Shown piece after piece: positions 3,602 through 55,400 of a stretch of 64,000 nucleotides of DNA (positions within the stretch are counted from its first letter, which is position 1; every line of letters starts with the position of its first letter). The position numbers were made by a program, and so were the translations under genes. The DNA comes from Carettochelys insculpta. Taxonomy: Eukaryota > Chordata > Testudines > Carettochelyidae. Below the pieces are notes generated by a model that was not told where the DNA came from, ran no database searches, and saw only the letters and a program-made list of their open reading frames with translations. The DNA lies in NCBI RefSeq assembly GCF_033958435.1, contig NC_134158.1, positions 6,591,837 through 6,655,836 on the forward strand. Reading direction: 5' to 3'.

Positions 3602-3686
3602 CGTGGCGCTTCAGGGGAGGGGGCTGGCCGGTGGGGGACGAGTCTTCGAGGATGTTTAGATCAGCGTAGACAACTTCCTCGGTCAT
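3602..3686 (-). CDS. First coding exon of an ITIM-bearing NK-type lectin receptor (rest not seen)
   Basis: On the minus strand an ATG opens 28 codons plus one base, ending at a consensus donor (ACG/GTAAGT). The peptide begins MTEEVVYADLNILEDSSP and ends in a Pro-rich stretch. VVYADL fits the ITIM consensus V/I-x-Y-x-x-L and lies in the first ten residues, where inhibitory NKR-P1/KLR and CLEC12-type receptors carry it; phosphorylated ITIMs recruit SHP phosphatases. The exon is 85 nt with phase-1 exit, the same length and phase as the first coding exon of the CLEC2-like gene in this window. A purine sits at -3. An in-frame ATG 21 codons upstream (3749) is a less likely start. No membrane or CTLD exon was found on this strand down to position 1, so the gene runs out of the window or is broken. 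It points away from the CLEC2-like gene. Confidence 0.62.
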
Positions 3687-3689
3687 GGT

Positions 3690-4754
3690 CCGTGCGGCCA
3701 AGTGCACCCAGCGAAGGGACTCTGGGGAAGGCCAGCCACTGTAATCCAAGCAGTGCCTTGAAAATCAGGCAGTACCATCTGTCAGGGGCTGGCGAATTTC
3801 CTTCTTATCTCTGAGCTGGAGATTTCCTTCACGACCAGGTCTCACCTCCTTACCTCAGGGCGATTGAAGCCAGAAGCAGGGGTGGTTCCCAGACAGAAAG
3901 CTCTCCTGTCCCGCTACTCGAGGGATGCTGCCTTCACAATGGGCCTGGCCTTCTAGCAGAGCCGTTAAGCTGCCATTTCCTGCTGGGGTCGGCCACCTTG
4001 AATCCAGGCCCTCTGCCTTTCCCAATAGTTTTGGGGTGGCCTGGCCCTCGTTTTGAGGCTCTCAAATGGGTCCTGTGTCTCCTCAGCTGTGCTTGACAGA
4101 CACTAGCAGTGAATCTTCCTTCAACAGGGGCACTGCCCTGCTGCAGGGGGTTGAACAGGCGCGTCCGTCGTTGCTGTGGAGAACCAGCCGTTAAGTCACC
4201 AGGTTCCCACAAGCGGGGGGGGCTGAGTTTTGAGGGGAGCCCTCTCACCTTGCTCCGTCCCCAACTGCTCTGCAGCCCTAGCGGCTCACCTCAGCCTTGT
4301 GATGACCAATTCAGTGGTCACCCGGCTACAGCAGAGTTAAAAATCAAAGGTCACTTTCCATGACACCAAACCCACCCACTGCTCTGCAGCAGCTAGGACA
4401 ACGCATGGTTTGGAAGCAACAGCCGGACCCCTCCTGTGGGCAGAAGGATTGTTATTGAATCTGTTTCCCCAAACCCCTGGTACTTGATCCTCCCCAGATA
4501 AGAGGTGAGCCTCCCAGCTTACCAAGTGAGGGTAGCCTACAGCCCAGGCGAGAGGAAGGATGAGGGTAACACCAGCAGGTTCCCACAGTTACTCTGTGTG
4601 TGCATGCGAAGGGCTCTGCTGACGCAGCTGACACCCGAGTGAGGTGTCAGGAGGGCTTAGAGGGAGGCACTAGAGGTGAGATGATGACAGGGCCCTAGAT
4701 ATACGGGACCACATGGGAGGAGGCATATCTGGGACCCTCCCTGCTAACTCAGTG
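3690..4754. other. 5' flank of the ITIM exon; nothing else recognised
   Basis: On the minus strand this would hold the promoter or 5' exons of the ITIM gene. No clear TATA box or CpG island is visible. Confidence 0.35.
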
Positions 4755-4905
4755 GTCCCTCTAACTTCTTCCAGCCGAGTGCGGAATAAATTTTGTGCTG
4801 AGGCTCGTGTGGATATGGGTGGGTGCTCTGTCAATTAGCATGGTGGCGTTTGAACCCCTCCTAGGCTGCCGCCCATGTGCTCATCAGCCAGAGAAAAAAT
4901 GCTAG
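4755..4905 (+). repeat. GAATAAATTTT-family repeat, diverged
   Basis: CCTCTAACTTCTTCCAGCCG, GGAATAAATTTTGTGCTG, TCAATTAGCATGGTGGCGTTTGAA. Confidence 0.5.
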
Positions 4906-5454
4906 CGAGGAGGCAGGGCTTATGACCAGTCTATGTGCGGGGCTGGGTTAGCACGGTAAGGAGCATCTCAGCCTGTTCTGGATCCCACACACCAGCTAGG
5001 TCCCTAGCGCTAACAGCAGTGTTTTCAGAACACACTCAGGACAGGGCTTCAAGGCCTGTTTCTACACAGGCAGTGGCCAGCAGCAGCCACAGGCTGACTG
5101 GAAATCACCTCCCCATGTAGGCTGCAGCAGCACCGAGCGACACCAGCTAAACCACCTTGGACCTGCTAGTTTTTTAGGTTCCTTTTTCCTCTCTGTGGGC
5201 TGTGCTCATTGTTCCTTTGCTTGCAGGAGGTGACAAAAGCAACCTGCTCTCAGCTCTGTCTTGTATAGGCAGCCCTCCTCCTTGCTATTTGTCCCCCCTC
5301 CTCAGCATGGTGGCTCCCTGTGTTCACACTGGACTGCTGCCCCTGGGAGCAAAGCCAGCGTTTCCTGTAAGCGCCGGGCTTGTGCAGCTGCCCAGGAGAG
5401 AGTCCTAGGCCACCCAGGTGATTTATCAGGGTGCCCACAGCTAGGATGTTCACC

Positions 5455-5545
5455 CCCACACTTGTTGTGCACACCTGTACCTGCCTTGGTGCACATAACA
5501 AAATTTATTCTGCACAAGGGTAGAAAAGATAAGCGGGGATGTGCG
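5455..5545 (-). repeat. GAATAAATTTT-family repeat, antisense
   Basis: CTTGGTGCACATAACAAAATTTATTCTGC. Confidence 0.55.
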
Positions 5546-5819
5546 TGAAAACTGGAGTTGGAAAGAGGTTTCCTTGTCCCCCTGTGGACACATCAGCTTG
5601 GTGAAAAAAACAAAACAAAACAAAAAATATCAGTCCCTGAAACATAGAAGAGTTTCATATGTCCCTGGTCACATCCCCGTCTGATCTGACTTGCTTTTTC
5701 CTCTTTTGATACATACTATTGATAATGGGCCATTTCCACTTTACTGAATAGACCTTGTCAGCTCTGGCCCTCCCTTTTACTGGGACCCCACTCTTTAAAT
5801 ACCCCTCTGAAACCACCCC

Positions 5820-5960
5820 CAACTCATGCATCTGATGAAGTGGATCTTTGCCCACAAAAGCTTATGCTCCAAAATATCTGTTAGTCTATAAGGTGCCACA
5901 GGACTTCTTGTTGTTCCCAAAGCTACAGACTAACATGGCCACCTCTCTGATATATGTGCC
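5820..5960 (-). mobile_element. Single SINE, antisense
   Basis: CATCTGATGAAGTGG, TTAGTCTATAAGGTGCCACAG and AGACTAACATGGCCACCTCTC in reverse order. Confidence 0.8.
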
Positions 5961-15848: not shown

Positions 15849-16568
15849 TAGCTGCGTCTACACGTGCACGCTACTTCGAAGTAGCGGCAGTAACTTCGAA
15901 ATAGCGCCCGTCACGTCTACACGCGTCGGGCGCTATTTCGAAGTTAACTTCGACGTTAGGCGGCGAGACGTCGAAGTCGCTAACCCCATGAGCGGATAGG
16001 AATAGCGCCCTACTTCGACGTTCAACGTCGAAGTAGGGACAGTGTAGACGATCCGCGTCCCGCAACATCGAAATAGCGGGGTCCTCCATGGCGGCCATCA
16101 GCTGGGGAGTTGAGAGATACTCTCTCTCCAGCCCTTGCGGGGCTCTGTGGTCACCGTGTGCAGCAGCCCTTAGCCCAGGGCTTCTGGCTGCTGCTGCTGC
16201 AGCTGGGGGTCCGTGCTGCATATACAGGGTCTGCAACTAGTTGTTGGCTCTGTGTATCTTGCACTGTTTAATGAAAGTGTGTCTGGGAGGGGCCCTTTAA
16301 GGGAGCGACTTGCTGTTGAGTCCGCCCCGTGACCCTGTCTGCAGCTGTGCCTGGCTCCCTTATTTCGATGTGTGCTACTTTGGCGTGTAGACGTTCCCTC
16401 GCTGCGCCTATTTCGATGTTGGGCTGAGCAACGTCGAAGTTGAACATCGACGTTGCCAGCCCTGGAGGACGTGTAGACGTTATTCATTGAAATAGGCTAT
16501 TTCGATGTTGCTACTTCGAAATTAGCTATTTCGATGTAGCGTGCACGTGTAGACGTAGCCCTTGTGTG
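15849..16568. mobile_element. TTCGAA-rich MITE with long terminal inverted repeats
   Basis: GCGTCTACACGTGCACGCTAC at the left is inverted at the right end (GTAGCGTGCACGTGTAGACG). CGAAATAGC/CTACTTCGA motifs recur many times. An 8-bp repeat ACAGGCCT lies at 15841-15848 and 16569-16576 and may be the target duplication. A second copy begins at about 63414. Confidence 0.75.
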
Positions 16569-17437: not shown

Positions 17438-17696
17438 TACATTAGACTTTTTCAGTTTGGGTCCCTTTATATGTATTATTGAACTAACAGTTTCTAAGGA
17501 CGTGACATGAAACCACAGTCCAACAATCAAAGGTAAGTTTGAAGCCTAGAATCTCCCTTGAGTTCCCAGTGCTATAAACTTGCATTAGGGATACTGGGGC
17601 CTGTTTGCTTCATTCTGGCATCAGCTGTGGTCATTCTGACTTTCCTGGGTAAGTGTGCGGATCCCATCTCTTCTGAAAACAGGCAGGTTGTGAAAA

Positions 17697-19545: not shown

Positions 19546-20668
19546 TTCCTGGTCACAAACTATACCTCATGACCCTGCTTCCCCGTTACAGAAGCCCCAG
19601 GACTGGTCAGCAAGAAGCAGCTCTCTGGAGCTTCTGTGTCTCTCGTCTTCACACCCTGTCCCTTGCTCCTAACTTGGTCCTGGGAACCTCCCACAGACCG
19701 ATTTGCTCCCTAGGACTGGGTGGTCTAGATGGGGGCCCTGGCCATTCACCTTCCCTGGGGCAGCTGCTGTGGGGCCCCGGGAAAGGTCTCCCTGCCCAGG
19801 CAGCGCTAAGGGCTCTGTCCCATAAAGATCATCTGGCGGCAACAAGTCCCACCCCAGGGAGCTCATACACCAGTGACCTGTAACATGCCCTGTAGCAGCA
19901 AACGTGACCCCCTCTCCCCCAGCTGCTGCTGGGAAGTCTTCCAGGCCGGCCCTCCGCAGACGGATGCTGACGCAGCCTCACCAGCCCCACATGGCAGCAG
20001 CGTCCCTCGGAGACAATGCAACGGGAGCCTGGAGGAGCTGGTGTCTTGCCTGCAGCAGAGCCTGTGTCCCTCGGGTCGGGTCTGAGGCGTGTTCCCTACC
20101 CCAGAGGGGGGCCAGTTTGGAGGCAGCACTGGGTACAATGGCACCGGTCTCTCCTGCCCACCACCTGTAGGGCCCGGCCCTCCTCCCCAGAGCTGAACTG
20201 CCTAGGGCTGGTGCTGAAGCAAGGCCAGCCGTGGGAAGGCTGGAAGGAGACGGTGTCTGCTGGGGTCAGCTGGCCGTGTGACCAGGGCCAGTCTCAGGCG
20301 GGGGAACTCTCCAGTCTGGCCACTTTGGAGCAGTATTATCAGCCAGGCCAGAAGAGGAGCAGGGCCCACTTGCCTTACAGGGCCCAGCCAAGCTCCACAC
20401 ACCGCTCCCCACCTGCCCTGAGTTGCCAAGACACATGTCTGGGTGGTGGGAGAGGTCTGGGTGTGTTTGGGTGCTGGGCAGAGGGGGGTCTGTGTGGGGC
20501 ACTGTATAGTTGTGGGGGCGGGGCTGAGAGGAAGGACACCGGGGGGAGATCTCTATGATGGGGCACCAAGGAGAGTGAGCTGTCTGTCGGGGGCTGGGCA
20601 GTTGTGGGTGAGTGTGTGGTGGTGGGAGGGCAGACATTGCGTGCCTGAATTCTTTGGTGGAACTGGGG
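19546..20668. other. GC-rich region without a supported gene
   Basis: A plus-strand frame at 19873-20085 (with LEELVSCLQQSLCPSG) looks slightly like a lectin stalk, but it lacks a usable donor and a CTLD follow-on. Confidence 0.3.
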
Positions 20669-25447: not shown

Positions 25448-26010
25448 GGCGGAGGCGGAGCATCGGCGGGGACACGCCCCCGAGCAGCAGCCGCGTCACA
25501 GGAAAATGGGTAACTACTTTCTTCCGCCGGCGAAGCATGCGGCAGAACACTGCGCCGTGCCAGGACGCTCCATGGCGGAGAAGGGGGGGATACAGAGCTC
25601 AGGGGCGGGACCGAGCCCCGAAGGCACAGAGCCAGCGCGGCGCGGGCAGGGTGAGCACTTTTCGCCGTGCTTGGACATTGTTTTTCCATATTTTCTATAT
25701 AAAGAACATATATAAATTCCTGTACATTTTAGTGCGGCCGCTCCGACCCCCCTATGCGCCCGAGAGGTTGGTACTGTCCGTGCGCCGCTGATTGGCTGAG
25801 GTATAAAAGCCTCCGCGCTGGGTGCATCCGCACAGCGAGTTGGGTCGTCGAAAGTGGGGCCCTCCGCCCCCTTGTTTTGCAGAAGCGCCTCGATCTGGGT
25901 GCAGGGCTGAACAAAGCTGGGAGCGCTCGACGACGACTACTCCCCACCCCCACCCCCGGGCCCTGTACCCGGAGCAGGAGCAGCGGCGAAGGGAGGGTGA
26001 GGGGGTTAAT
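25448..26010 (+). repeat. Promoter/first-exon tandem duplication, copy 1
   Basis: Matches the segment about 577-581 bp downstream throughout. Paired landmarks are GGCGGAGC, GGAAAATGGGT, CCAGGACGCTCCAT, GGACCGAGCCCCGAAG, TATAAAG-type AT patch, AGTGCGGCC, GAGAGGTTGGTAC, ATTGGCTGAGG, AGAAGCGCCT and CGGAGCAG.AGCAG. It ends near a GGGTGAGGGGGTTAAT donor-like site. This copy keeps a clear TATA box. Confidence 0.75.
25791..25808 (+). promoter_or_regulatory. Inverted CCAAT box next to TATA box
   Basis: ATTGGCTGAG is immediately followed by GTATAAAAG. This is a core-promoter-like pair in copy 1 of the duplicated region, with GC-rich sequence downstream that could be a first exon. Confidence 0.55.
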
Positions 26011-34499: not shown

Positions 34500-34907
34500 T
34501 GTGATGGAGTGGGGGATACCTGTGTGTGTGTGTGTGTGTGAGTGGCTCACAGAGGGTGTGAGGCTCCTGCTGAGGGTAACCCTGTCGACCAGGTAACACC
34601 TTTGGACTGCAGACAGAGGAGGAGGTGGAGCCTGAGGGGTTTGGATTGGAACTGGGAGTTGGGAAGCAGTTAGTCTGGGCTGAGGGAGAGAGAGACAAAG
34701 GAGGGGGCAAGGCCCCGGCTCTGGGGGCCCCTCGGGGCCTCCTCTCCGCAACATGAATTGGACTGGCTATCTCTGCCTGCTGTACTGACTCCTCTGTACG
34801 ATGCTGTGTCCTGTCGGCTTATAAACCCGCTGTTCTCCTGCTAAGTGAGAGACTCTCCTGCCTGCGGACAGGGTGCAGAGCTTGGGGGACCCCAGAACCC
34901 CATCACA
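34500..34907 (+). repeat. 5' LTR of the non-autonomous gypsy element
   Basis: TG...CA LTR of 408 bp containing a (TG)n run at about 34521-34540. The sequence CGGCTTATAAACC may stand for the polyadenylation region, which reads CTAATAAACC in the 3' LTR. Confidence 0.88.
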
Positions 34908-35032
34908 CTGGTGTCAGAAGTGGGATGTTCTGCACCCCGAGGATGGAGCATCCAGCAGTAAGTGACCAGGGCCCTGGAAGAAGTGGGGCCTGTGAGACCC
35001 AGGTGTGCTGCAGGGCAGTGAGGTGCAGTTCC

Positions 35033-35390
35033 CCAAGGCGGAGGGGCCTGCGGCCGAACCCAAGCAACTGCGGTCGTGACCCTCGAGAGGGGGTGTCACA
35101 CCCGAGGAGGGGTTACTCCTGGGAATCTGTTGGAGTCGGTCCCAGAAGGTGGAGGGGCCGAGAGCCCAACCCCCAGGAACAAGTGACCCCTGAGGAGGCT
35201 GACGCCGAATGAGTTCTTCCCAAGACCGTGTGCTCATGGTCCCTGAGAGCGGGTGTCACACTGAAGAAGGGGTTCTGCTGGGAGTCTGTTGGAGTTGGCC
35301 CCAGAGGGCAGAGGGGACTACGGCCTAACCCTGGGCAGCTTGTGACCTGTAAGAAGCCTGGCACACTGAAGGGATTCTTCCAGGAATCGT
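35033..35390 (+). repeat. Leader tandem repeat, about 160-bp unit, in the non-autonomous gypsy element
   Basis: GGGTGTCACAC, GGGGTT, CTGGGAxTCTGTTGGAGT and CCCAGAxGG recur in the same order near 35090-35160 and 35250-35320. Partial flanking copies (GGCGGAGGGGCCTGCGGCC) are also present. Confidence 0.65.
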
Positions 35391-35786
35391 GGGGAGCAGA
35401 GGGCATCAGCCTGAGAGCCTGCAACCACGCTGAGCAACTCCGCTGTGAAGTGGCAGCACCTGGAAACCGAATCGAGATTAAAGGAGCTGGACAAGGCAGC
35501 ATGGATGTGCAGTGGCAGAGCTGAGGGCTGGGGAGAATCCTGCAGAGGTGAGCCCGAATCGGGGCAGGGAACCCTGGACTGCATAGAGCTCTGAACCGAG
35601 TGGCCTGCCAGAGCTCAAGGAGGGAAGGAGCGATTCCAACCCATCATCTACTAGTGGCCAAGACAGACCTGCGAAGAGTTTTCCAGGCCTGGGCCGAGGA
35701 AGGTGCCTGTGTGTCTGTGCAGGAAAGCAGCTTGTCCACTGGGAATGGCAAGTTGTCTGTGAGAGAAGCTGCTTCACCTTCTGTGT

Positions 35787-36851
35787 GTGTGTGTGTGGAG
35801 ACCAGCCGGGGGGCTGGGAGAAAGGAGAGAGTGTCTCCCATTGTCTGTGTTGAACAGCAGCAGCAGCCTGGGGAGAGAGCAGAGCCTGCGTTTAGAAAAG
35901 GTGCCAATGAGGAAACTAGCCCATTGTCTGAGGAAGATTCCCCAGCCTGGGGTGGCTGGAGAAGGATCCACCAGGAAAGAGCATTCCAGGTGTGTCTCTA
36001 AATCCAGCCATGGGGGCTGGAGCAGAGGGAATGGCTCTGGGATGGGCAGTGGTGTCCCTGCTAAGGACACTGGTCCTTGGTGCAAGAAAAGTGCTTCTGC
36101 TTCTGGGGAAGTGAATCTTTTGCCTGAGCCTGTGGGGGCTCGAGATGGAGCCAAGATCCCAGAGCTGGATCTGAGGGCAGCTGAAGCCCAGATGGGAAGT
36201 GGGCCTGCCTCTGTGTCTCTCAGGGGGGATGATGCTTTAACTCGGTCTGATCCAGTTAGTATCATCAGGGAATCCCAGAGACCAGATGATTCTGGTAGTT
36301 GTTCTTTGCCTGATGCTGAGGTGTTACTGGGAGGGGGTGAGAGGGCTCTGTCCTACCAGAGTCATCCTCTCGCCAGGACACAAGAACAGACGGATAATAG
36401 AGTTCCGCTGACTGATGAAGATAAAGGAGCTGGTAGCAGAAGGGAGGAAAGGGACCCTGACCTTCTGTCCGGTGGTACTGGCTGGCTGCCTGGAGGGGGA
36501 TTACATGGGAATCTGCCTGATGGGCCACAAGTGATCCTGGGTGTAGGTGAAACCCAGGAGCTGGTTGTGGCTCAAGGGAGCAGTGCCCCTGTGGAGCCAG
36601 GCAGGGGTGAGTTGTTGTTTGGGGGAGCTCTTGAGGAAGAGAATTTCCCTGAAATGTTTCCTGACCCGTCTGTGGGGACTGCAGAAAATGGGAGTGAGGT
36701 GGAGGAGAGTGAACAGGAAAGGTGCTTGTCTGTAAGCGCCAGAGCAGCCCTTTGCCTGGGGAGAAGTTTGTTTCAGCTCCTGATGGCCAGGACCTGTCTA
36801 AGTGTGAAACCACTGGCTGTGCTCTGCAAGGGTCCAAAGCAGGCAGGGTAA
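35787..36851 (+). pseudogene. Uncharacterised ORF of the non-autonomous gypsy element
   Basis: Open for 354 codons, low-complexity, rich in Gly, Ser, Glu and Pro, with no recognised domain. Stretches such as IPELDLRAAEAQ and SIIRESQRPDDSG look like real, formerly constrained coding sequence. Near 36750 sense appears to pass to another frame (VSAPDGQDLSKCE... to a stop at 36902-36904), which suggests a frameshift. It occupies the place of gag or a gag/pol spacer. I do not recognise its function. Confidence 0.5.
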
Positions 36852-37951
36852 AAGTTTCTCAGGAATTGGAAGTTGATGCAAGTAAAGTGAAAACTATCAG
36901 GTAGTGTGAGCAGCCCTGTGAGAACCAAGTAAAAGAGCTGCACAGTCAGTCTCTGTAGGATGCAGGAGAGGGCCAGCAATTCCCCATCTCCAGATGGTGG
37001 AAACACTTATATTCTTATACTGGACTCCACTTCTGATTCCATGGGGAGGCAGTAGTTGGAGGGGGAAGGACAAAGGAGCTGTGGTCCTGGTGGACCAGTA
37101 AGGGATAAACAGGGATTCCTCCATGTGGATTCTGCATCTGGGACTCACAAAACAACTCTCAGAAAGCAGTTTGGTTTGCAAATTTCCAGACTGGCTGGAA
37201 GGGGCCCGTCTCCCTGAGATCATCAATGGCCCAGCTCTTGTTAGAAGGGAGGGCACAGCCAGAGAGATCAAATTTCCACCCCAGGGGGCAGGAGAGAAGA
37301 CTAGAACTTGATGGTGCTAAGAAAGGCCTCAGCCATTTATCCCCAAAATACCAGATTCTCAAGGATGTTGCACGAAGGTTGTGGTCTACCAAAGAGCAAC
37401 GTAAATGTGCAGTTGCAATGGGTTTGTTCTGTTACTCACACTGACTGCTGTAACCAAGGGGTGCTGTTACCAAAAGCTGTAGAATTGTACCATGTACTGA
37501 AGGTTTGGAAAGAGCCATGTGACATGATGACATTGATGTAGAAGCATGAGTTGTAGGTTGAAGGAGTCTGTAACTCTGAAATGTCACCATTGTTCCCTGT
37601 AACTAGTCTTGCAATCTCTCACATGAGGAGGAACATTCCAAACCTATTGTGTGGCATGGAAGGGGAAACTGAGGCACACAACCATTCTGGTGGTCTGGCT
37701 AAATGCCAAGGGGGGAAAGCATTTGTACCTTCCTTTACTGGACTGTAACTGAATTCCAAACATTGGCTGGAGCAGCTGTATGGACTGGTGGGCAGACAGG
37801 GCAGGGCCTAGACCAGAAAAGAACTATTTGATCTGTTGGTGCTGCAGCATCTGTATGGGCTCTGCCTGCCCGACTTGAGAACGTGGCTGATGGACCAGAG
37901 ACAGAAGCAGGGAGACCGACCAACCTGAGGGAACTAAAGGGACTTGCCCGG

Positions 37952-38110
37952 CTGCATCACATGAAAAGGGCCAATACCAAGCTCCTGAGTTGGAGCCTCC
38001 CCCAGCAGGATTATGACATGGAGGTGGTGCACATCAAGGGGAGCACTGAGGGTGCAGCCGATGCCCAATCACGAGGGGAGGGCCCTGAACTTCCCCAGGT
38101 CACTGGCTGA
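37952..38110 (+). pseudogene. RNase H C-terminal remnant
   Basis: Reads LHHMKRANTKLLSWSL to GPELPQVTG and a stop, closely matching the last 50 residues of RNase H in the neighbouring full element. The AD-LSR motif has decayed to ADAQSR. Only this piece of pol is left. Confidence 0.85.
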
Positions 38111-38145
38111 GTGACCCCGCTCAGTTCGGTCTGGAAGGGGCGGGT

Positions 38146-38525
38146 GTGTGTGTGTGTGTGTGTGTGTGTCAGAGGGTGTGGGGCTCCTGCTGAGGGTAAC
38201 CCTGACAACCAGGTAACACCTTTGGACTGCAGACAAAGGAGGAGGTGGAGCCTGAGGGGTTTGAATTGGAACTGGGAGTTGGGAAGCAGTTAGTCTGGGC
38301 TGGGAGAGAGAGACAAAGGAGGGGGCAAGGCCCCGGCTCTGGGGGCCCCTCGGGGCCTCCTCTCCCCAACATGAATTGGACTGGCTGTCTCTGCCTGCTG
38401 CACTGACTCCTCTGCACGATGCTGTGTCCTGTCGGCTAATAAACCCACTGTTCTCCTGCTAAGTGAGAGACTCTCCTGCCTGCGGACAGGGTGCAGAGCT
38501 TGGGGGACCCCAGAACCCCATCACA
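38146..38525 (+). repeat. 3' LTR of the non-autonomous gypsy element, 5' edge deleted
   Basis: Collinear with the 5' LTR from the (TG)n run onward. The first 20-30 bases and the polypurine junction are missing or replaced by the expanded TG run. Carries CTAATAAACC. Confidence 0.83.
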
Positions 38526-38968
38526 CAGGCCCACAGCCTGGGTTGGGCTGTGGCTCTTGCAGCCAAGCAGTAACTGGCTCTTGGTTCAACCAACCACAGG
38601 CCAGCCTGACTCATGGCCCCTAAGTGGAGCTGCACTGAAGATCTATTCAGGCAGGCTCCCAGAGGAGAGAGAGCCCTGCTCCCCTCTGCATTTACTATCC
38701 CTGGGGGGCGGCTTGTGGCCGCATTAAAGCACCTGACTGCGACAGCTCCTTCCCTCACCAGCCTGCTCCAAGGCACCCTTAGGAGGCTCTGTGTCCCTAC
38801 AGGGGCAATCGTAGCTCTTCAGCTATGCTAGTGGAGCAGAAACTGTTCCAACACACCCCTGCTCACCAACACTGGTGCCCCTTTACACAGACACAGCAGG
38901 TGACCATATGTTCCGGTGTTACCAGGCCAGTCCCTTTTTTCACCTGCCTGGAGAGCATCCTACCCCGA

Positions 38969-39384
38969 TGTAATGGAGTGGGGGGAGCGCATGTGTGAGT
39001 CAGGCTGGATGTCTGAGGCAAGCAGCAGCTCCCAGTGGCTAAGGATGACCCTGGGGCTACAACTGGCAGGTAACACCTCTGCCTGAACAAAGAGCAGGGA
39101 GGAGCTGAGAGGGGTTTGAATCGGGGGCGGCAGTTAGAGGCTAGGAAAAGGGAGAGCTGGAAGGCAGCCAGCCTGAGGAGGGGGAAGCTACACCCCAGAG
39201 GGGCACCCCTCGGGGTCTTCTCCCCAGGACAGGTTGGAAGGACTGTCTCTGGCTGCTATGCTGTTGCTTCTGTGAGAAACTGGACATCTGTTGCCTAATA
39301 AACTTGCTGTTGTACCTGCTGAGTGAGAGTCTCTCCTGCCAGCGGGCGGGGTGCAGTGCAGGGGGACCCCTGAACCCCATCACA
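38969..39384 (+). repeat. 5' LTR of the Gmr1-type gypsy element
   Basis: Starts TGTAATGGAGTGGGG, ends ACCCCATCACA, and contains a polyadenylation signal (CCTAATAAAC). Matches the downstream LTR along its whole length. Confidence 0.92.
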
Positions 39385-39404
39385 CTGGTGTCAGCAGTGG
39401 GATG
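39385..39404 (+). other. Primer-binding site of the gypsy element
   Basis: CTGGTGTCAGCAGTGGGATG lies directly after the LTR. The same site, with one difference, follows the LTR of the neighbouring shorter element. The priming tRNA is not assigned. Confidence 0.7.
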
Positions 39405-39543
39405 CACTGCACCCACGGATGAGCTCCCAGCAGTGGCTGACTGAGCACCAGAGAAGGAAGGAGTCTCACAAGAGCCAGAGGGGGAACAGAGCCATTCCTG
39501 CAGCTGCTGCTGGTGAGTGGATACCCCGGGAGATAGCGGGGAG

Positions 39544-41463
39544 ATGGATTATACCCGACTCCTGAAGGCAGAGCTAGCGGGGCTGTGCAGAGAGAGGGGC
39601 CTGACCGTGGGGAAGGCGACCAAGGCCCAGCTGATTGCACAGCTGGAAGAGAATGACCGATCCGGGGGGGCAGAGCCTGTCCCGGCAGAAAGTGGCCGGT
39701 CAGCCTCAGGAAGCATTTCGGATTCTCCGACAGGAGCAGGGGCTCGACACCGTCAGACAGACGCGGTGCCCGCCAGGTCGCGCTCAGCTAGCGGTGGTCC
39801 ATCGCGGGCAGAGTCCCCCGCCGCAGAGCTGCGACGGCTGGAACTCGAGGGGAAATTAAAGGAACTGGAGCGCCAGGAACGGGAAAGTGAGCGTGAGCGC
39901 CAGGAATGGGAAAGAGAGCATGAGCGTGAGCGCCAGGAACGGGAAAGAGAGCGTGAGCACGAGCGCCAGGAATGAGAGAGAGAGCGTGAGCACGAGTGCC
40001 AGCTACAAGAGAGACAGCGGGAGGAAAGAGAGCGAGAGCGTGAGGAGAGAGAGCGAGAGCGGGAGCATGAGCGAACCATGGCAGAGGCGAGACGCCAAGA
40101 GGCCCCAGCTGCGGTAAGCGGGGAGAGGGCCAGACGGCTCGGGGTGGCCAGTCACTTGGAGACGCGTGTGCTGGCCCAGTGTCAGGACCCAGGGGACATG
40201 GACGAGTTCCTTACCGCCTTTGAGCGAGCCTGTGAGTTGCATGAGGTTCCCCCAGATGAGTGGCTCCGGCACCTCACCCCCTTGCTGGGCCAGAAGGCCG
40301 CAGTGGTGCTCAGCCAGCTGGTGGGGCTGCAGCCTGGGGACTATGAACGGTTCAAACAGGCCCTGCTGCATAAGTTCGGGCTGACTCCGGAGATGTACAA
40401 GAAGAAGTTCCAGGAGGCGCAGAAGAGGCCAGAGGAAACCCATGTAGATACAACCGCCCGCCTGAAGCAATACTACCAGAAGTGGGCGTTCGGAATGGGA
40501 GTCCAGTCCGTGGAGGACCTGATCGAGCTGGCGGTCGTGGAGCGATTCTACGAGATGTGCGCACCTGACCTGAGGGTGTGGCTCGTGGACCGGAAGCCAG
40601 GGGACTCACACGATGCAGGGAAACTGGCAGATGACTTCACAAACAGCCGAGCCAGGTTTGAAAGTGAGCCCCACAAAGAGAGGGAGTCTCGGAGAGAGAG
40701 GGAGTCCCAGAGGGAGAGGGAGTCCTGGAGAAACCGAGAATCTCAGAGAGACCAGTCCCTAACTGTACGACAGAGGGGACCACCTCTTGGGCAAGCCCAG
40801 GAAAGAGGGGCCAGCCACCCACCCCCCAGAGAGCCAAACAGAGCCCGGACAGAGCAGCCGGCCCGAGGGACACAACAAGACCCAGGCTGTTATCGCTGTG
40901 GGCGAAAGGGGCATAGAGCAGCCCAGTGCCCCAGGCTCCCAGACAGGTTGAGCAGGCCGGGGGGTCATGGAGTCAACTGGGTGGGGTCCCAGAAGTCAGA
41001 GGGGCTGGCGGCCAAGGCGGGTGGTGCTGACAATGGGCACTCGGATTGGGCTGAGTCCGCCCCACAGACCAGCTCCTCACGGGGACCAAATGGTCAGAGG
41101 CCAGTTTACAGAGTGGGGGCGGCACTGCCTCTGTGGAGCAAGTGTCTCAAACACCTCGAGGTAGACGGGAAAAAGGTCACGGGGTTCTGGGACACAGGCG
41201 CTGACGTGACGCTGGCCCGACCCGGGGTGGTGGCACCGGGCTGCATGATACCCGATTCCCACCTGACGATAACAGGAATTGATGGGACCCCTTTCAAGGT
41301 GCCCATGGCGAGGGTGCACCTGAAATGGGGGAAGAAGGAAGGCCCCAAGGAAGTGGGCGTGCACAGCCATTTGCCGGCGGATGTACTGATGGGGGCTGAC
41401 CTGGAGAACTGGCAAGGTGAACGCCCTCGTGCCCTGGTCCTGACCCGTAGCCAAAGAAAATGA
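39544..41463 (+). pseudogene. gag-protease region of the gypsy element, interrupted by one stop
   Basis: From the ATG the protein starts with a helix-rich SAP-like stretch (YTRLLKAELAGLCRERG, then KATKAQLIAQLEE). Next come Ser/Arg-rich sequence and a long Glu/Arg coiled-coil repeat (ERERQE units), with an in-frame TGA at 39973-39975 inside the repeat. The capsid part (about 40190-40660) includes an SCAN-like segment (RLKQYYQKW, DLIELAVVERFYEMCAPDLRVWL). A CCHC zinc knuckle (CYRCGRKGHRAAQC, 40888-40929) and an aspartic protease active site (FWDTGAD, 41191-41199) follow. The frame ends at TGA 41461-41463, although the same frame stays open from 41464 to 41754. Gag packages element RNA; the protease cuts the polyprotein. 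Confidence 0.88.
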
Positions 41464-43053
41464 GGGGTGCGCTCCCCAGATTCAGGGGTACAGGCCCAGC
41501 CAAAGTCACAGGGGCCAACCCTGAGAGAAAGGGGGCCCCCAAAAACCAGATCTCGCAGGCCAGGGGTGCTGGAGCCAGGCAGGGATGGGGAAGTAGCATC
41601 CGCTCCTGCCCGAGCGGAAGAATTCCAGGCAGAGCAGCAGACAGACCCCTCCTTGCAGAAGCTGAGGGAACTGGCCAGTCTCAGCCCAGCTCCACAGCTG
41701 GGGGAGGGCTGCAGGGAGAGATTCCTGTGGGAAAAGGGATTCCTGTACCGGGAATAGGCTCCCAGACGCAAAGCGGAGCCATGGAAGGTTCAGAGACAAC
41801 TGGTGGTTCCCCAAAAGTACCGGCGCAGGCTGCTGTACCTAGCCCATGATGTCCCGCTCGCAGGACATCAGGGGATCCACCGCACCAGGAGAAGGTTGTT
41901 ACAGAACTTTTTCTGGCCAGGGATCTTTGCAGCTGTCCATCTGTATTGCCTGTCCTGCGATCCCTGCCAGAGGGTGGGGAAGGCCCGGGACAAGGGGAAA
42001 GCTGCCCTGAGGCCACTGCCCATCATAGAGGAGCCTTTCCAGAAAGTGGCTATAGACATAGTGGGCCCCTTCAGCAAGGCAACGCGTTCGAGGAAGAAAT
42101 ATATTTTGGTAGTGGTAGATTTTGCCACACGATACCCAGAAGCTGTGGCCTTGACTTCTATCGATGCTGACACCGTGGCGGATGCACTGCTGTCCATTTT
42201 CAGCAGAGTGGGGTTCCCCAAGGAGGTCCTCACAGATCAGGGGTCCAACTTCATGTCGGCCCTACTGCAAAGCTTGTGGGACAAGTGTGGGGTCCGGCAC
42301 ACCTGGGCCACAGCCTACCACCCGCAGACCAATGGGCTGGTGGAGAGGTTCAGTGGGACTCTGAAGCAGATGCTGAGAACCTTCATGAATCAATACCCCC
42401 ATGACTGGGACAAGTACTTACCCCACCTGCTGTTTGCATACACGGAGGTGCCCCAGGAATCCACAGGGTTCTCCCCGTTTGAGCTGCTGTACGGAAGGAG
42501 GGTACGGGGACCCTTGGGCTTGCTCAGAGAAGAATGGGAGGGGATGGACTCTCCTGAAGGGGAGTCAGTGGTACAGTATGTACTGACCTTCCGGGAAAAA
42601 CTCACCGAGCTCATGGGCCTGGCCAGGGAGAACCTCTCCATGGCCCGAAGGAAGCAAAAGGTCTGGTATGACCGTAAGGCCAGGGCCCAAGCCTATGACA
42701 CCAGGGATCAAGTGATGGTCCTTGTACCTGTGCGGCGGAACAAGCTGCAAGCAGCCTGGGATGGGCCCTTCAAGGTTGTCAAACAGCTAAATGACGTGAA
42801 TTATGCGGTGGAACTGTTGAACCGGGCCCACAGCCACCAGGTCTATCATGTGAACATGATGAAACCTTACTGGGACAGACAGAACTTGGTGCTAGCCGTG
42901 TGCAGACACTGGGAGGGGCAGGGGGATGATCCCTTGGTGGATTTACTGACAAGGACTGGAGCCGGCTTCTTGCTGGAGTCTATTCCCCTCTCAGACCAGC
43001 TGACCCCTGCCCAGCAGACGGAGATCAGGGAGGTGCTGCATTCGCATCAATAG
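41464..43053 (+). pseudogene. Linker and integrase of the gypsy element
   Basis: After the gag-protease stop the frame continues through a Pro/Arg-rich linker, is cut by TAG at 41755-41757, and then encodes integrase. The HHCC zinc finger is visible (HDVPLAGHQGIHRTRRR...CLSCDPCQ). The catalytic triad is D (VAIDIVGPF, codon 42055), D (LTDQGSNF, codon 42235) and E (NGLVERF, codon 42343). A GPY/F-type C-terminal module (WDGPFKVV) follows. The TAG at 43051-43053 ends the block in the same frame as the downstream reverse transcriptase. Integrase inserts the cDNA. Its position before reverse transcriptase is the unusual feature. Confidence 0.9.
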
Positions 43054-44406
43054 CTGTCCTCGGACAGACCCGGACGCACTGACCTGGCTGTCCACTGAAT
43101 AGAGACAGGCACCCACGCCCCTATCAAGTGTGTGCCATTCAGAGCCACAGGGAGGACGGCTCAGGACATAGAGCGGGAGGTTGAAGACATGCTGGCTCTG
43201 GGGGTGATCCAACCCTCCTCCAGCCCCTGGGCCTCTCCCGTGGTGTTAGTCCCTAAAAAAGATGGGTCTGTTCAGTTTTGTGTGGACTATCGCAAGCTTA
43301 ACGCCATCACGGTCTCGGACGCCTACCCCATGCCCAGGCCTGATGACCTTTTAGACAAGCTGGGGGGAGCCCGTTACCTCACCACCATAGACCTCACCAA
43401 GGGGTACTGGCAAGTGCCATTAGACGATGATGCCCGGCTCAAGTCTGCTTTCATCACCCCTGTGGGGCTCTACGAGTTCCTGGTCCTGCCCTTTGGCCTC
43501 AAGGGGGCACCCGCTACCTTCCAGCGTCTGGTGGACCAGCTACTGAAAGGGATGGAGAGCTTTGCCCTGGCTTACGTGGACGACATTTGCATCTTCAGCC
43601 AGACGTGGGAGGACCATGTGTCCCAGGTCAAGCAGGTGCTGGACCGACTCCAGAAGGCCGGGCTGACTATCAAGGCAGGGAAGTGCAAGGTGGGAATGGC
43701 TGAGGTGACCTACCTGGGCCACAAGGTGGGCAGCGGCTGCTTAAAGCCAGAGCCAGCTAAAGTGGAGGCTGTCAGAGATTGGCCCACACCCCAGACTAAG
43801 AAGCAGGTCCAGGTCTTCATTGGGATGGCGGGGTACTACCGGAGGTTTGTGCCCCACTTTAGCTCCATCGCAGGCCCCCTCATGGAGCTATGTAAAAAGG
43901 GAAAGCCTGACAAGGTGGTCTGGACCGAGCAGTGCCAAGAGGCCCTCTGCACGCTGAAGGAGGCTCTGGTCAGGGCCCCAGTGCTGGCAAATCCAGACTT
44001 CAACAAGCCCTTCCTGGTGTTCACCGATGCCTCAGACGTGGGGCTAGGGGCGGTGCTAATGCAAGTGAATGACAAAGGGGAGAAACACCCCATTGTGTAC
44101 CTGAGTAAGAAGCTGCTGCCCCGGGAGCAGAACTACGCGGCCATAGAGGAGGAATGTCTGGCCATGGTGTGGGCACTGGGGAAGCTGCAGCCGTACCTGT
44201 TTGGACGGCGTTTCACTGTGTACACCGATCACTCACCCCTGACCTGGCTGCATCACATGAAAGGGGCCAACGCCAAGCTCCTGCGGTGGAGTCTGCTCCT
44301 GCAGGACTACGACATGGAGGTGGCCCACGTCAAGGGGAACAACAACACCACGGCCGATGCCCTGTCACGCAGGGAGGGCCCCGAACTTCCCCAGGTCACT
44401 GGCTAA
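43054..44406 (+). pseudogene. Reverse transcriptase and RNase H of the gypsy element
   Basis: The frame is shared with integrase, but a TGA at 43096-43098 breaks the short lead-in; the block is open from there to TAA 44404-44406. Reverse transcriptase motifs include LVPKKDGSVQFCVDYRKLN, LTTIDLTKGYWQV, PFGLKGAPATFQRLVD and the catalytic YVDD (43573-43584), then the YLGHKV thumb motif. RNase H follows with FTDASDVGLGAVLMQ, AIEEECLAMVWAL, TDHSPLTWL and TADALSRREGP at the C-terminus. All conserved catalytic blocks I looked for are present. These are gypsy-type domains. The polypurine tract and 3' LTR begin within 40 bp of the stop. Confidence 0.92.
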
Positions 44407-44428
44407 GTGACCCCGCTCAGTGCGGTCT

Positions 44429-44443
44429 GGAAGGGGGGAGAGA
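44429..44443 (+). other. Polypurine tract of the gypsy element
   Basis: GGAAGGGGGGAGAGA immediately precedes the 3' LTR start (TGTGATGG). This is the expected plus-strand primer. Confidence 0.8.
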
Positions 44444-44860
44444 TGTGATGGAGTGGGGGGAGTGCCTGTGTGAGTCAGGCTGGATGTCTGAGGCAAGCAG
44501 CAGCTCCCAGTGGCTAAGGATGACCCTGGGGCTACAACTGGCAGGTAACACCTCTGCCTGAACAAAGAGCAGGGAGGAGCTGAGCTGGGTTTTGAATCGG
44601 GGGTGTCAGTTAGAGGCTAGGAAAAGGGAGAGCTGGAAGGCAGCCAGCCTGAGGAGGGGGAAGCTACACCCCAGAGGGGCACCCCTCGGGGTCTTCTCCC
44701 CAGGACAGGTTGGAAGGACTGTCTCTGGCTGCTGTGCTGTCGCTTCTGTGAGAAACTGGGCACCTGTTGCCTAATAAACCTTCTGTTGTACTTGCTGAGT
44801 GAGAGTCACTCCTGCCAGCGGACGGAGTGCAGTGCAGGGGGACCCCTGAACCCCATCACA
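44444..44860 (+). repeat. 3' LTR of the Gmr1-type gypsy element
   Basis: TGTGATGGAGTGGGG...CCCCATCACA, collinear with the 5' LTR, with CCTAATAAACC as the polyadenylation signal. It is followed directly by a CR1 3' tail fragment. Confidence 0.92.
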
Positions 44861-45270: not shown

Positions 45271-47186
45271 GAGTTCGTACAGAACTTCCCGCGGGGTAAA
45301 ACCCGTGTCTGGCTGGGACTCAGGTTTACAGCTGCAGAGAAAAACTGGACCTGGGTGGACAGCTCAGTGTGAGATCAAACGCTGTGAGTATCGCCTGCTG
45401 TGGTTGCTATTTTATAAAAATACAAAAGCACAGGTAACAACGCTCGCTGGCTTCACTCCGCAGGGGACAAGGGCGGTCAGCTGAAGAGCCGAAACAGGAA
45501 TGGATGGAGTGCAAAGAGCCAGATAATTTTACAGATCTATGTAGCTAGAGATAGCCACGTATTAGATATTTCCTATGGCTATATAGATATATAAATATAC
45601 GATACGCAGCTCAATGCTCTCTGCCAGAGCCAGGCCCCGCCCCAGCGCACCCTGGCTCTAAATCAATGCTGGTAACTCACTGGAGCCGCCACCGCCACTG
45701 CCACCATGTACATCTCCTACCAAGCACTGGGGCACATGCACGGAGCAGGCCCGGTACTCCCAATGTGCGGCTCTAAGGAGCCACATTCATAGGCTCAGAA
45801 AGTCAGTTATGCCTCCAGAGCTGTGGGTTGGCCACCCCGCCACAGACCCGTGTGTCTAAGCAGCCCAAACTCTAAGAGTGTGTGAGTTACAGCCCCAGCT
45901 CTGTGCACTTGGAATCTAGCAACTACACCTGGGTTCGTTTTTTTTTTTCTTTTGGTGAGGGGTAAATTCCCTGAACATAGTGTATTTAGGGTGATGAAAC
46001 TATTTGTGAAGTCAATGCAAATAGGCAAATAATTTGCGCTGTCAATTTTTCTCCTCCCCAAAGTTGCAGGGGTCTGCTTGACTGTTTGAAACGCAATCGT
46101 GTGACTTTTCAGTTTCAAAATTAAACCTTCTCTCAAAATGTAGCAAGGTGAATTTAAAAAAAAAAAACATGAAAAACTTCCCAAAACAAAAAATAATACA
46201 TTGTAGAGACGTTTTTGACTCATGGTGATATTTTTCCTCTTCAGTTTCTCATCCCAACAAAAAGAACTTGTGGGAGGGGGAATCAGTTTTGATTGGAATC
46301 AAACCCATTTTTCTTTTAGGTTCTGCTCCCAGACTGTTTAACTGTTGTAGCACTTGCATAAGCCTCTATTCTGTTTTAGGGCCGGTTCTGTTCAGTATCT
46401 TCATTAACGATTTAGATATTGACATAGCTTGTTTAGTTTGGAAAAGAGAAGATTGAGGGGAGACATGATAGCCGTTTTCAGGTATCTAAAAGGGTGTCAT
46501 AAGGCAGAGGGAGGGAACTTGTTCTTCTTTGCCTCTGAGGATAGAACAAGAGGCAATGGACTTAAATTGCAGCAGGGGAGGTTCAGGTTGGACATTAGGA
46601 AAAAGTTCCTAACTGTCAGGGTGATCAAACACTGGAACGAATTGCCAAGGGAGGTGGTAGAATCTCCATCACTGGAGATATTTAAGAAGAGGTTAGATAG
46701 GTGGCTTTCAGGGATGGTCTAGAAAGTACTTGGTCCTGCCATGAGGGCAGGGGCTGGACTCGATGGCCTCTCGATGTCCCTTCCAGTCCTACTCTTCTAT
46801 GATTCTATATGATTCTGTGATTCATGGTGTAGTCACTAGATGGGACAAAGTGCTACACTGTGGATTTCACACGGCCCATGAAAGAATTCAGTACAAGCTG
46901 CCCACTGGGTTAGTCTGGAGAACCACCTACCCGAGGTTGCTTTCATTAAGCCAACTGCATCATAACAAACTGGTCCCTGATGCAATCAACTCTGCTGATT
47001 TTGGCAGAGTTTCAAGGCTCTGAATTTGGCTCATTTGGCTTCCTTTCTCCCCCATTTTACAGGTTCCCGGTAACGGGCCCTGCTGATGTGAACTGCTGTG
47101 GGGTGATGAAAGGGAATCAGATCAAGTCTGAAATCTGCAGTGCAGAATTCAAATGGATTTGCCAGAAGGAAGCTGTGACGCTGTAG
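45271..47186 (+). pseudogene. Truncated NK-receptor-type C-type lectin: last two CTLD exons only
   Basis: Two exons remain. Exon 45271-45383 follows CCCCACAG and reads EFVQNFPRGKTRVWLGLRFT, then AAEKNWTWVDSS: the WxGL core and WTW strand of a CTLD. Exon 47063-47186 follows TTTTACAG and reads through ADVNCCGVMKGNQIKSEIC to FKWICQKEAVTL and a TAG stop. Donor, acceptor and phase (2) match. The first exon has an in-frame TGA (45372-45374) eight bases before its donor. No CTLD first exon, membrane exon or cytoplasmic exon was recognised upstream, where the gypsy elements lie. A CR1 3' end sits in the intron. It is a different subtype from the CLEC2-like gene (NCCG...WICQKE tail), closer to KLR-type receptors. 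It is probably a pseudogene, though the TGA could be a sequencing error. Confidence 0.78.
46381..46815 (+). mobile_element. CR1 3' end in the intron of the broken lectin
   Basis: Encodes [29 protein letters not shown] and ends GATTCTATATGATTCTGTGATTC, the CR1 tail microsatellite. Confidence 0.9.
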
Positions 47187-53298: not shown

Positions 53299-53302
53299 GC
53301 CT

Positions 53303-53502
53303 CAGAGTCTAACAAAGGTATTCAGGCATGAGCTTTCATGGGTAAAATCCCCTTCCTCAGAGGGAAATGGAGCGCAAAAACAGAATCCAGGCTTACCCAC
53401 AAAAACTCACAATCTAATATATTTGTTAGCCTCTACGGTGTCACAGGACTGCTTGTTGATTGTGAAGCTACAGACTAACACAGCTCCCCTCTGAAACTTT
53501 TC
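53303..53502. mobile_element. Foldback SINE unit, diverged
   Basis: GTCTAACAAAGGTATTCAGG forward piece and a full reverse arm ending AGACTAACACAGCTCCCCTC. Target duplication not clear. Confidence 0.65.
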
Positions 53503-53844
53503 AACAAATTGTTGCTTTTAGTTGGGATTCCTGAGATCTGGATTCAATTCCTAGCTGTGGGAGAGATGCCCTGTGTGACCTTGGGCGAGTCCTTCCATCC
53601 CTCTGGGCCTCAGTTTCCCAATCCGTAGCATGAGGATAATAATCCTCCCCTGCCAAACAAGAGCATGAGGAGGGTGTCAGATGCAGTGGTGCTGAGTGAC
53701 TCCTTACCCAACAGAAAAAAAAAATCCATTGGTGGATTTTCACAACACTCCCAGTAGCCCAATGCAGACGGCTCTGGCTACAGAGCTTTTTCAGATTTCT
53801 TTCCCTGGTCTAATTCAAACTGGTGCTGAGAGGATACCAGGCAG

Positions 53845-53985
53845 CGTTGCCCCTGATTTTTTTCCATCCATTTTGTTTTGTGCACCAAGGTGCCTTCTGA
53901 TAGACACACCCGCTGCCAGCTGTGGGCTCTCTGCTGATCACCTGGGAAGCACCTGAATCCCATGTGCCCAGCTGACGGGGAACAC
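53845..53985 (+). repeat. GAATAAATTTT-family repeat
   Basis: TTTTTTTCCATCCATTTTG, TGTGCACCAAGGTGCC and CTGCTGATCACCTGGGAAGCACCTGAAT. Confidence 0.55.
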
Positions 53986-54462
53986 TAGCTGGGGTAGACG
54001 TGTCATGAGTTCAGACTACCTGAGCCACAATCAGAGCCATGTCTGCGTGAATCAGCTATCCAAATCCCTATGTCTGCGTGTCAAATGCTAATGGAATCCA
54101 TCAACGTCAAGAAAACCAGTGCTGGGGGGTTCGTTTGATCCACGGGAACCCCCTAAAACAAATGCCCCCAAATTTGGATCCCTAGCTGCAGCCCCAAGCA
54201 GCACACCACATTTCAAAGCCAAAAAAGCAGTCGTGTAGCAAGTTAAGGACTAACAAAATAATTTATTAAGAGATGAGCTTTCGTGGGACAGACCCACTTC
54301 TTCATTTCAAAGCCGTTCAAGGACCCATGTGGATTTGAGAGCCTTTACACAAGTCAGCCTTTAAACAGACAGAAATTCTAGACCTTTGCTGTGGCAAAAC
54401 TCAAGCTCCATTGTAATTTCCACTGTCACAAGAAACGGCATAATCCATTAAACACTTCTACA

Positions 54463-54986
54463 TACAGTAAACTCTGTCTTAACTGGCATTCTATCATCCG
54501 GAACTCTCAAACAACCCACATTCTATCATCTGGAACTCTCAAACGACTGGCATTTTGACCATAAGTAATTTTTTCTTAGGTTTTCCATAAGTACAGTAGA
54601 GTGAAAGTAAATACAAATAAATACAGCAAATAAATTTGCAGTGAACAATACCACTGTTTTTGGTACATAAAACACTCTGCATACATTGTTGTTTGTTTAT
54701 TAATATCTAATCTTTGTTTTCTTGAGCGGTCAGCATTGCTAGGTGTACCTCTCTAATACCCAGAATATTTTAATATCTGGCAGCATCCAGATCCTGGGGC
54801 TGCCAGATTGAAAGAGTCACTGAGAGGTAGCCATGTTAGTCTGTATCTTCACAAAACAAAAAAGCACTCCTGTAGCACCTTAAAAACTAACAATATTATT
54901 TATTAGGTGGTGAGCTTTCATGGGACAGACCCACTTCTTCCAATCTGGAGAATAACTGATAACTGCTGGTATGAAACAGTTTACTA
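54463..54986. mobile_element. Tigger-like MITE, second copy, interrupted by a SINE
   Basis: Starts TACAGTAAACTCTGTC and ends near GAAACAGTTTACTAG; the body matches the 19156 copy. A SINE occupies about 54817-54945. Confidence 0.7.
54817..54945 (+). mobile_element. Single SINE inside a Tigger-like MITE
   Basis: GAGAGGTAGCCATGTTAGTC head to CCCACTTCTTCC. A further headless copy lies at 54227-54304. Confidence 0.78.
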
Positions 54987-55318
54987 GATCGGGCTTTCTA
55001 CTGCATGTAGCACTGTTGACTTCCAGCCCTGCCCTTGCAATGATGGCTAAATTGTCTGGGCCTCAGCAAAAGATGCAGGAGAGAGGCTGTCAGGGTCATG
55101 TGGTGGCCTCAGAGATGTGGGGCGGGGGTGGAGGTGTTGGGTGTTGTTTGAGTGTTCAGAGGCCCTGCTTCCTGTGGTTTCTGATGAGGAGGGGGTCAGA
55201 ACTGTTACTGAAGGTGAGAGTCCTGAGCTGCAGAGCCTGTGGGTCAGTTGGTAGTTACCTCTGTCCCTGCCGCTGAGGACCTGCCAAGGAGAACTCAGAG
55301 CCGGAACGAGCCTGGCCA

Positions 55319-55400
55319 ATGGAGAATGAAGAGGGGTACATGGCGTTGGACTTTCGTCAAAATAGGACACCAAGTCGGCTATGCCAAACCAGTATCCAAA
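55319..55400 (+). CDS. First coding exon of a hemITAM-like lectin receptor (rest not seen)
   Basis: ATG followed by 27 codons plus one base, ending at a consensus donor (CCAAA/GTAAGT). The peptide begins MENEEGYMALDFRQNRTPS. Acidic residues before G-Y-x-x-L form a hemITAM-like motif of the kind used by CLEC1B, CLEC7A, CLEC9A and, in related form, KLRF1, which signals through SYK. The motif position (residues 4-10), the phase-1 exit and the length (82 nt against 85 nt in the two other first exons here) fit the NK/dectin lectin family. It is too short to stand out as an ORF. I found no convincing membrane or CTLD exon between 55400 and 64000, so the gene may continue beyond the window or be a relic. 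The context of neighbouring lectins raises confidence; the small size limits it. Confidence 0.58.

Follow-up and report, generated by a model that had tools for sequence, protein, structure and literature searches.

A window of 64,000 nucleotides from the pig-nosed turtle Carettochelys insculpta (here "the window", the whole stretch of DNA that was analysed) holds parts of several C-type-lectin genes, including a broken copy of a KLRF1-like receptor gene that appears to be a mosaic, possibly of a new kind. Its membrane exon is of the type that accompanies a hemi-immunoreceptor tyrosine-based activation motif (hemITAM), and its stalk exon and middle lectin exon are closest to P0121, an annotated KLRF1-like receptor with an immunoreceptor tyrosine-based inhibitory motif (ITIM), whose first coding exon lies in the same window. 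Such a composition gives a hint that turtles exchange inhibitory and activating signalling among receptors that are otherwise alike. We consider it probable, judging from sequence comparison, that the window is part of a turtle cluster of NKRP1-type receptor and CLEC2 genes in which the dead copy represents the activating-type partner of P0121, generated by block recombination.

Composition of the broken receptor copy

Exon-wise profile hidden Markov models (HMMs) were built from 120 receptor proteins (120 of 132 matches; turtles, one crocodile, and three lizard models), with 24-120 rows per exon, and were run against all six frames of the window; for CLEC2, 120 of 344 proteins were used. Each exon model gave at most one receptor match in the window; apart from these exons and the CLEC2 gene, all further listed scores were below 7 bits. 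The exon limits in Table 1 were set from splice contexts.

By these models, KLR-type exons 2, 3, 5, and 6 follow one another in order on the plus strand between 17.5 and 47.2 kb and enclose a complete CLEC2-like gene. The last two encode parts of the C-type-lectin-like domain (CTLD) and have KLRF1 and KLRB1 as their best structural relatives. A preliminary description of the window had reported them as a two-exon broken lectin; both exons are real, but that description overlooked the two further exons, the span of the copy around the CLEC2 gene, and its mosaic make-up. For the same copy, the exon HMMs found no KLR-type exon 1 upstream on the plus strand (nothing above 6.2 bits) and no receptor-type exon 4 in the window, where the exon 4 model matched only the CLEC2 gene (26.5 bits). 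With these two exons missing and a TGA within exon 5, the copy is a pseudogene. It runs on the plus strand from 17.5 kb, and exon 1 of P0121 lies on the minus strand at 3.6 kb, so that the two face apart.

The exons of the copy differ in their closest relatives. Exon 2 shares 24/33 residues with P0129 and P0130 of Mauremys mutica, both of hemITAM type, and 9/33 with P0121, which ranks 66th. The stalk exon matches P0121 in 39/48 residues (next best, 28/48) and exon 5 in 30/38 (next best, 28/38). The ectodomain tree makes the copy sister to P0121 (100/98), and the tree of exons 1-2, which rests on 33 to 61 columns and is weak, puts it within the hemITAM set, a set whose own fork carries 100/100.

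The same pattern could be a by-product of gene death, in which the membrane exon of a decaying hemITAM gene came to adjoin the stalk of another, ITIM-type duplicate through a deletion or an insertion, exons 5-6 were derived from that duplicate or a further copy, and C. insculpta never had a working swapped receptor. The absence of exons 1 and 4, the stop in one CTLD exon, and the CLEC2 gene and long terminal repeat (LTR) elements lying between exons 3 and 5 all fit such a history. The phases of exons 2 and 3 are nevertheless compatible, and the same composition is annotated unbroken in M. mutica (P0129, P0130) and in Terrapene (P0131), so we regard this account as unlikely, though by no means negligible.

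Signalling type and ectodomain in turtle receptors

Block recombination as the putative origin of the copy finds its parallels in other turtles. P0129, P0130, and P0131 have hemITAM first exons, and their ectodomains are 90-95% identical to that of the ITIM-type P0124 of M. reevesii and 91-93% identical to that of P0125 of Terrapene, which is classed as ITIM type by its membrane exon alone, its first exon being missing. Compared exon by exon, P0124 and P0129 share 7/28 and 11/33 residues in the first two exons, then 51/53, 53/56, 36/38, and 38/40. Within Terrapene, P0125 and P0131 are 93% identical over the ectodomain and share only 10/32 residues in exon 2; within Emydura, P0151 and P0208 are 90% identical over the ectodomain and share 6/28 residues in exon 1 and 15/33 in exon 2. 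Identity changes abruptly at the border of exons 2 and 3, as set from the exons of the window. An exchange within intron 2 would therefore yield receptors that are alike outside the cell and signal in opposite ways.

A single gene with two alternative promoters, in which either an ITIM or a hemITAM leader exon is spliced to one set of ectodomain exons, would also explain how an ITIM model of M. reevesii and a hemITAM model of M. mutica, species of one genus, come to have ectodomains 95% identical. It is highly improbable in view of the window, where the ITIM exon is on the minus strand and the broken hemITAM-type copy on the plus strand, and of Terrapene, where the two types are on different contigs and 7% of the ectodomain residues differ.

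Typing by motif at the exon-HMM stage gave 25 hemITAM, 50 ITIM, and 45 untyped proteins out of 120. A second motif rule, applied at the tree stage, typed 78/120 (50 ITIM, 28 hemITAM), and the 76 that were nearly full-length (49 and 27, respectively) were used. On trees of 77 rows (these 76 proteins and the broken copy), the ectodomain shows 10 changes of type and exons 1-2 show one. Collapsing forks under 80/80, 95/80, or 95/95 reduced the changes on the ectodomain tree to 9, 7, and 6, respectively; with shuffled type labels on the uncollapsed tree, the mean was 23.2 changes and the minimum 18 (300 shuffles). The type being defined by exon 1, a comparison confined to exon 2 is the fairer one; there type changes twice, and the nearest neighbour has the same type in 76/76 cases.

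We propose that exons 1-2, with the tail and membrane segment, and exons 3-6, with the ligand-binding part, may behave as two blocks, which would recombine between neighbouring copies around intron 2, through either gene conversion or unequal exchange. The resulting receptors would present the same face to their ligand and signal in opposite ways. The dead copy would combine stalk and lectin exons sister to those of P0121 with a membrane exon from the hemITAM family; in C. insculpta the hemITAM-type partner would then have lost exons 1 and 4 and the open frame of its middle lectin exon, so that of the pair only the inhibitory gene, P0121, is annotated as a whole. It is quite possible, although we would not call it probable, that turtle NKRP1-type receptors generally consist of two recombining blocks, that recurrent exchange in intron 2 keeps pairs matched for a presumed common ligand, and that the dead copy is the fossil of one pair.

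Several observations weigh against recombination as the source of the copy. Exon 6 is neutral, with 32/40 residues shared with P0121 (rank 16) and 34/40 with the best matches, proteins of Chelydra and Emydura. Because exon 1 is missing, the hemITAM type of the copy is read from the membrane exon alone, which supplies 33/61 columns in the exons 1-2 tree, where the program warns of meeting long branches. The copy is about 30 kb long with another gene and LTR elements inside, and exons 2-3 and 5-6 could therefore be remnants of two genes. A constraint uniting the four mosaic ectodomains (P0129, P0130, P0131, and the broken copy) in one clade was rejected (p-AU 0.000266 in the approximately unbiased test), a result in favour of recombination, but the group had been defined by exon 1-2 type after the ectodomain identities were known. 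By ectodomain, the nearest neighbour has the same type in 72/76 cases, so that swaps would be occasional and mostly common to related species.

Finally, the relatives are mostly predicted gene models, and annotation can mis-join tandem neighbours. The type changes would be largely illusory if hemITAM exons 1-2 had been spliced in silico onto a neighbour's ectodomain in the other turtles, and two models lend this some colour: P0156 appears to start in repeat sequence, and P0056 combines a TRIM-like RING with a CLEC2 lectin. In M. mutica, however, the hemITAM proteins number at least three and differ in their exon 1-2 blocks; two have ectodomains 97% alike, and the ectodomain of another is 60% like these. 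The contrast recurs in several genera and is visible in the DNA of the window itself, which makes an annotation artefact distinctly unlikely.

Neighbouring genes and other features of the window

Table 1. Features of the 64,000-nucleotide window of C. insculpta, in order of position
Feature	Positions	Strand	Remarks
ITIM coding exon 1 of annotated KLRF1-like P0121 (248 residues)	3602-3686	minus	85 nt, phase-1 exit
Broken copy, exon 2, transmembrane, hemITAM type	17550-17648	plus	HMM 44.7 bits (17549-17641), next 6.6
Broken copy, exon 3, stalk	19937-20079	plus	HMM 37.8 bits (19936-20073), next 5.5; 3' end by analogy, donor weak (GTCTGA)
CLEC2B-like exon 1, cytoplasmic, no tyrosine	27142-27226	plus	spliced product equals P0001
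CLEC2B-like exon 2, hydrophobic, presumed transmembrane	28235-28333	plus	splice solution
CLEC2B-like exon 3, stalk and first CTLD part	29608-29795	plus	splice solution
CLEC2B-like exon 4, CTLD	30428-30531	plus	splice solution
CLEC2B-like exon 5, CTLD end and stop	30934-31075	plus	splice solution
Second direct-repeat pair	34521-38526	plus	34521-34908 / 38145-38526, 95.4% identical
LTR retrotransposon inside the broken receptor span	38967-44860	plus	direct repeats 38967-39384 / 44442-44860, about 419 bases, 95.7% identical
Broken copy, exon 5, middle CTLD exon	45271-45383	plus	HMM 59.3 bits (45271-45384); in-frame TGA 45370-45372
Broken copy, exon 6, last CTLD exon and stop	47063-47186	plus	HMM 80.9 bits (47064-47180)
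hemITAM exon 1 (EGYMAL, Tyr7) of a further receptor gene	55319-55400	plus	82 nt, phase 1, donor AAA|GTAAGT
Annotated first exon of KLRF1-like P0156 (MNKLEKYILNGATIRQ)	62131-62178	plus	100% over 16 residues; repeats adjoin

The preliminary description had named four pieces of lectin genes, namely an ITIM exon, a CLEC2-like gene, a broken lectin, and a hemITAM-like exon; exon HMMs and protein matches recover all of them, and the lengths of 82-85 nt and the phase-1 exit that it gave for the first coding exons are correct. Its view of a C-type-lectin cluster whose members share common descent is likewise supported. P0001 is annotated on a C. insculpta contig of 24,953,102 bases, and a contig of equal length carries the CLEC2-type models P0002, P0012, and P0037 and the receptor models P0121, P0156, P0182, and P0197. 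As for the claimed mixture of member types, the ITIM and CLEC2-type members are borne out, and the hemITAM member is an exon only. A scan for exons running from an ATG to a donor and containing Y..[LIVM] returned 18 candidates across the window; taken by itself the motif is thus weak evidence, and the case rests on the exon profiles and protein matches.

The product of the ITIM exon is identical to residues 1-28 of P0121 (100% over 28 residues), and the ITIM exon-1 HMM has its sole window match there (3603-3686, 47.9 bits; next, 6.2). The tail motif VVYADL, residues 5-10 with Tyr7, fits the ITIM consensus I/V/LxYxxI/V/L, which identifies P0121 as a predicted inhibitory-type receptor. No ITIM-type exon 2 was found in the window by the exon HMM (best, 6.0 bits), and the remaining exons of P0121, outside the window, should lie to the left of 3602. 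Among the best 60 of 175 matches to solved structures, the lectin domain is closest to KLRF1 (1.7e-36) and KLRF2 (2.1e-33), then KLRB1 (4e-28), placing P0121 by predicted kinship with the NKRP1-type (KLRB1/KLRF) receptors; Ly49, NKG2, CD209, and Dectin, also considered as closest kin, match more weakly among these 60. The tail of P0121 lacks a hemITAM, the mark of human-type KLRF receptors (NKp80/NKp65), and "KLRF1" is here the annotator's name. KLRF is listed with a hemITAM in the human column of a published table, and the carnivore KLRF3 has none (PMC11484026).

The CLEC2-like gene is complete (27142-31075) and has a single splice solution in the ranges tried. Its spliced translation equals P0001, the annotated CLEC2B-like protein of C. 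insculpta, in 205/205 residues, in agreement with the preliminary attribution of the DNA to a turtle, and contains a Lectin_C domain (E 2.8e-14). The closest solved structures are CLEC2D (2.2e-40) and then CD69 (3.4e-35), which points to membership in the CLEC2 ligand family. P0001 has no tyrosine ahead of the hydrophobic segment and hence a short tail without a tyrosine signalling motif; a tyrosine-free short tail is a defining CLEC2 trait. A second CLEC2B-like protein of the species, P0002, is 82% identical to P0001, and P0012 and P0037 are two isoforms of a CLEC2A-like model. At 0.8-1.7 kb upstream of the gene lies a GC-rich tandem duplication (25450-25801 / 26026-26382, 79%), possibly a duplicated promoter.

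The hemITAM exon near the right end gave the sole window match of the hemITAM exon-1 HMM (55319-55369, 17.5 bits; next best, 6.1), and its product is 50% identical to the N-termini of P0131, P0136, and P0220. It encodes MENEEGYMAL, which fits D/EGYxxL with Tyr7 (PMC3819593; PMC10845735) and does not fit the strict form DEDGYxxL (PMC11484026). The exon HMMs found neither a hemITAM-type exon 2 nor a receptor CTLD to the right of 55400 within the window; these may lie beyond 64000. The annotated first exon of P0156, which the preliminary description did not list, is probably mis-called; its surroundings, read by eye, are presumably reverse transcriptase. P0156 has no clear membrane segment, and its gene may in fact begin with the hemITAM exon at 55319.

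The retrotransposon inside the broken copy encodes, in open reading frames (ORFs) that were searched apart, a SCAN-like gag (7.9e-10), a CCHC domain, a weak RVP domain, integrase, and reverse transcriptase (RT)/RNaseH. The integrase ORF (41758-43053) stands ahead of the RT/RNaseH ORF (43099-44406), the reverse of the usual Ty3/gypsy order, and the element may be Gmr1-like. The second pair of direct repeats is about 77% similar to the ends of this element and perhaps marks a shorter LTR element just upstream of it. Elsewhere, a 590-base repeat occurs at 15849-16437 and 63411-63999 (90% identical).

Genomic position

The receptor-CLEC2 genes of different birds lie at positions in the natural killer complex (NKC), in the major histocompatibility complex (MHC), or linked to TRIM genes or to the Z chromosome, and in Anolis they lie on one chromosome with such genes (Rogers and Kaufman, PMC5002281); the word turtle is absent from the main text of that paper. 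The preliminary description suggested either of the first two settings, an NK gene complex or an MHC-linked lectin region, for the turtle cluster. Outside the CLEC2 gene and the main retroelement stretches, the 64-kb window has 258 stop-to-stop ORFs of at least 75 residues, 227 of which were scanned with Pfam. Neither the NKC markers A2M, GABARAPL1, TMEM52B, and KLRG1 nor MHC class I/II, TAP, TRIM, or BTN were found in these 227 ORFs, a scan that shorter exons escape, and NKC markers may well lie nearby outside so short a window; the matches were RVT_1 (2 ORFs), a weak BRCA2_TR2 (0.009), and a weak Fer4 (0.027).

Two models from other turtles are leads only for linkage to the MHC. The RING of P0056 (Pelodiscus sinensis) is closest to TRIM proteins, and P0056 may result from the fusion of gene models or may indicate that a TRIM gene lies next door; P0104 (Platysternon) is a CLEC2 model named antigen peptide transporter 1-like. 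They amount to a fusion and a name, not synteny. The main MHC region of sea turtles is on chromosome 14 (PMC12891914), where the turtle cluster could not be placed. Placement through the Caretta contig with P0138 and P0139 (49,751,964 bases) was rejected, as no chromosome in the published table fits that length (PMC10338980), perhaps owing to a different assembly.

Comparison with known systems

In view of the duck and of carnivore KLRG, a mixed ITIM/hemITAM receptor-CLEC2 cluster is in itself already a known kind. The duck MHC contains an NKRP1-like/CLEC2-like cluster that, like the turtle's, has expanded receptor and CLEC2 genes adjoining, with tails bearing D/EGYxxL hemITAMs, ITIMs, or immunoreceptor tyrosine-based switch motifs (ITSMs); four receptors have an ITIM or ITSM and seven a consensus hemITAM (PMC10845735). 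That cluster is placed in the MHC, a position that the turtle cluster may or may not share, and the cited passages do not discuss sharing of ectodomains between the two types (PMC10845735). Chicken B-NK/B-lec is a further sauropsid case of an NKR-P1-type receptor with a linked CLEC2 gene; the chicken genes are head to head, whereas the turtle CLEC2 gene, on the plus strand, is flanked by parts of a receptor copy (PMC5002281).

The human pairs NKRP1A-LLT1, NKp80-AICL, and NKp65-KACL resemble the turtle cluster in that receptor and CLEC2 ligand genes are closely linked and the hemITAM carries Tyr7, the tyrosine position of hemITAM lectin receptors other than Dectin-1 (PMC3819593). P0001 is a candidate ligand of the turtle receptors. 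In human, the ITIM and the hemITAM are carried by separate receptor genes whose ectodomains differ; in turtles, P0121-type ectodomains occur with either module. Among the matches listed, no report of ITIM/hemITAM module exchange in turtle lectins was found in the titles and abstract openings of the openly licensed literature. In carnivores, as in turtles, one lineage bears both motifs, KLRG being hemITAM-like in cats and some seals and ITIM-bearing in mouse, human, and northern fur seal (PMC11484026). There the motif differs between species in one gene, and the cited passages describe neither block exchange nor matched pairs (PMC11484026).

ITIMs recruit SHP1 (PMC11484026), and the hemITAM recruits Syk in CLEC-2 and Dectin-1, its use of Syk being unsettled for NKp80 and NKp65 (PMC3819593). 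By analogy with these families, SHP1 and Syk may have the corresponding roles in the turtle receptors. Most of the activating lectin receptors known so far depend for signalling on an adaptor and a charged residue in the membrane (PMC11484026). If turtles instead exchange a whole tail-and-membrane block, ITIM or hemITAM, among lectin receptors linked to CLEC2 genes, they would offer a clean system for learning how receptor pairs stay matched, together with a non-avian sauropsid view on the question of NKC/MHC origin. Matched inhibitory and activating receptors recur in vertebrate immunity and are often explained by pathogens mimicking inhibitory ligands. CD300A and CD300C are such paired receptors, with shared ligands and opposite signals, in a paper whose text uses the term "gene conversion" 12 times; they belong to the immunoglobulin superfamily, unlike the lectins compared here (PMC12447643).

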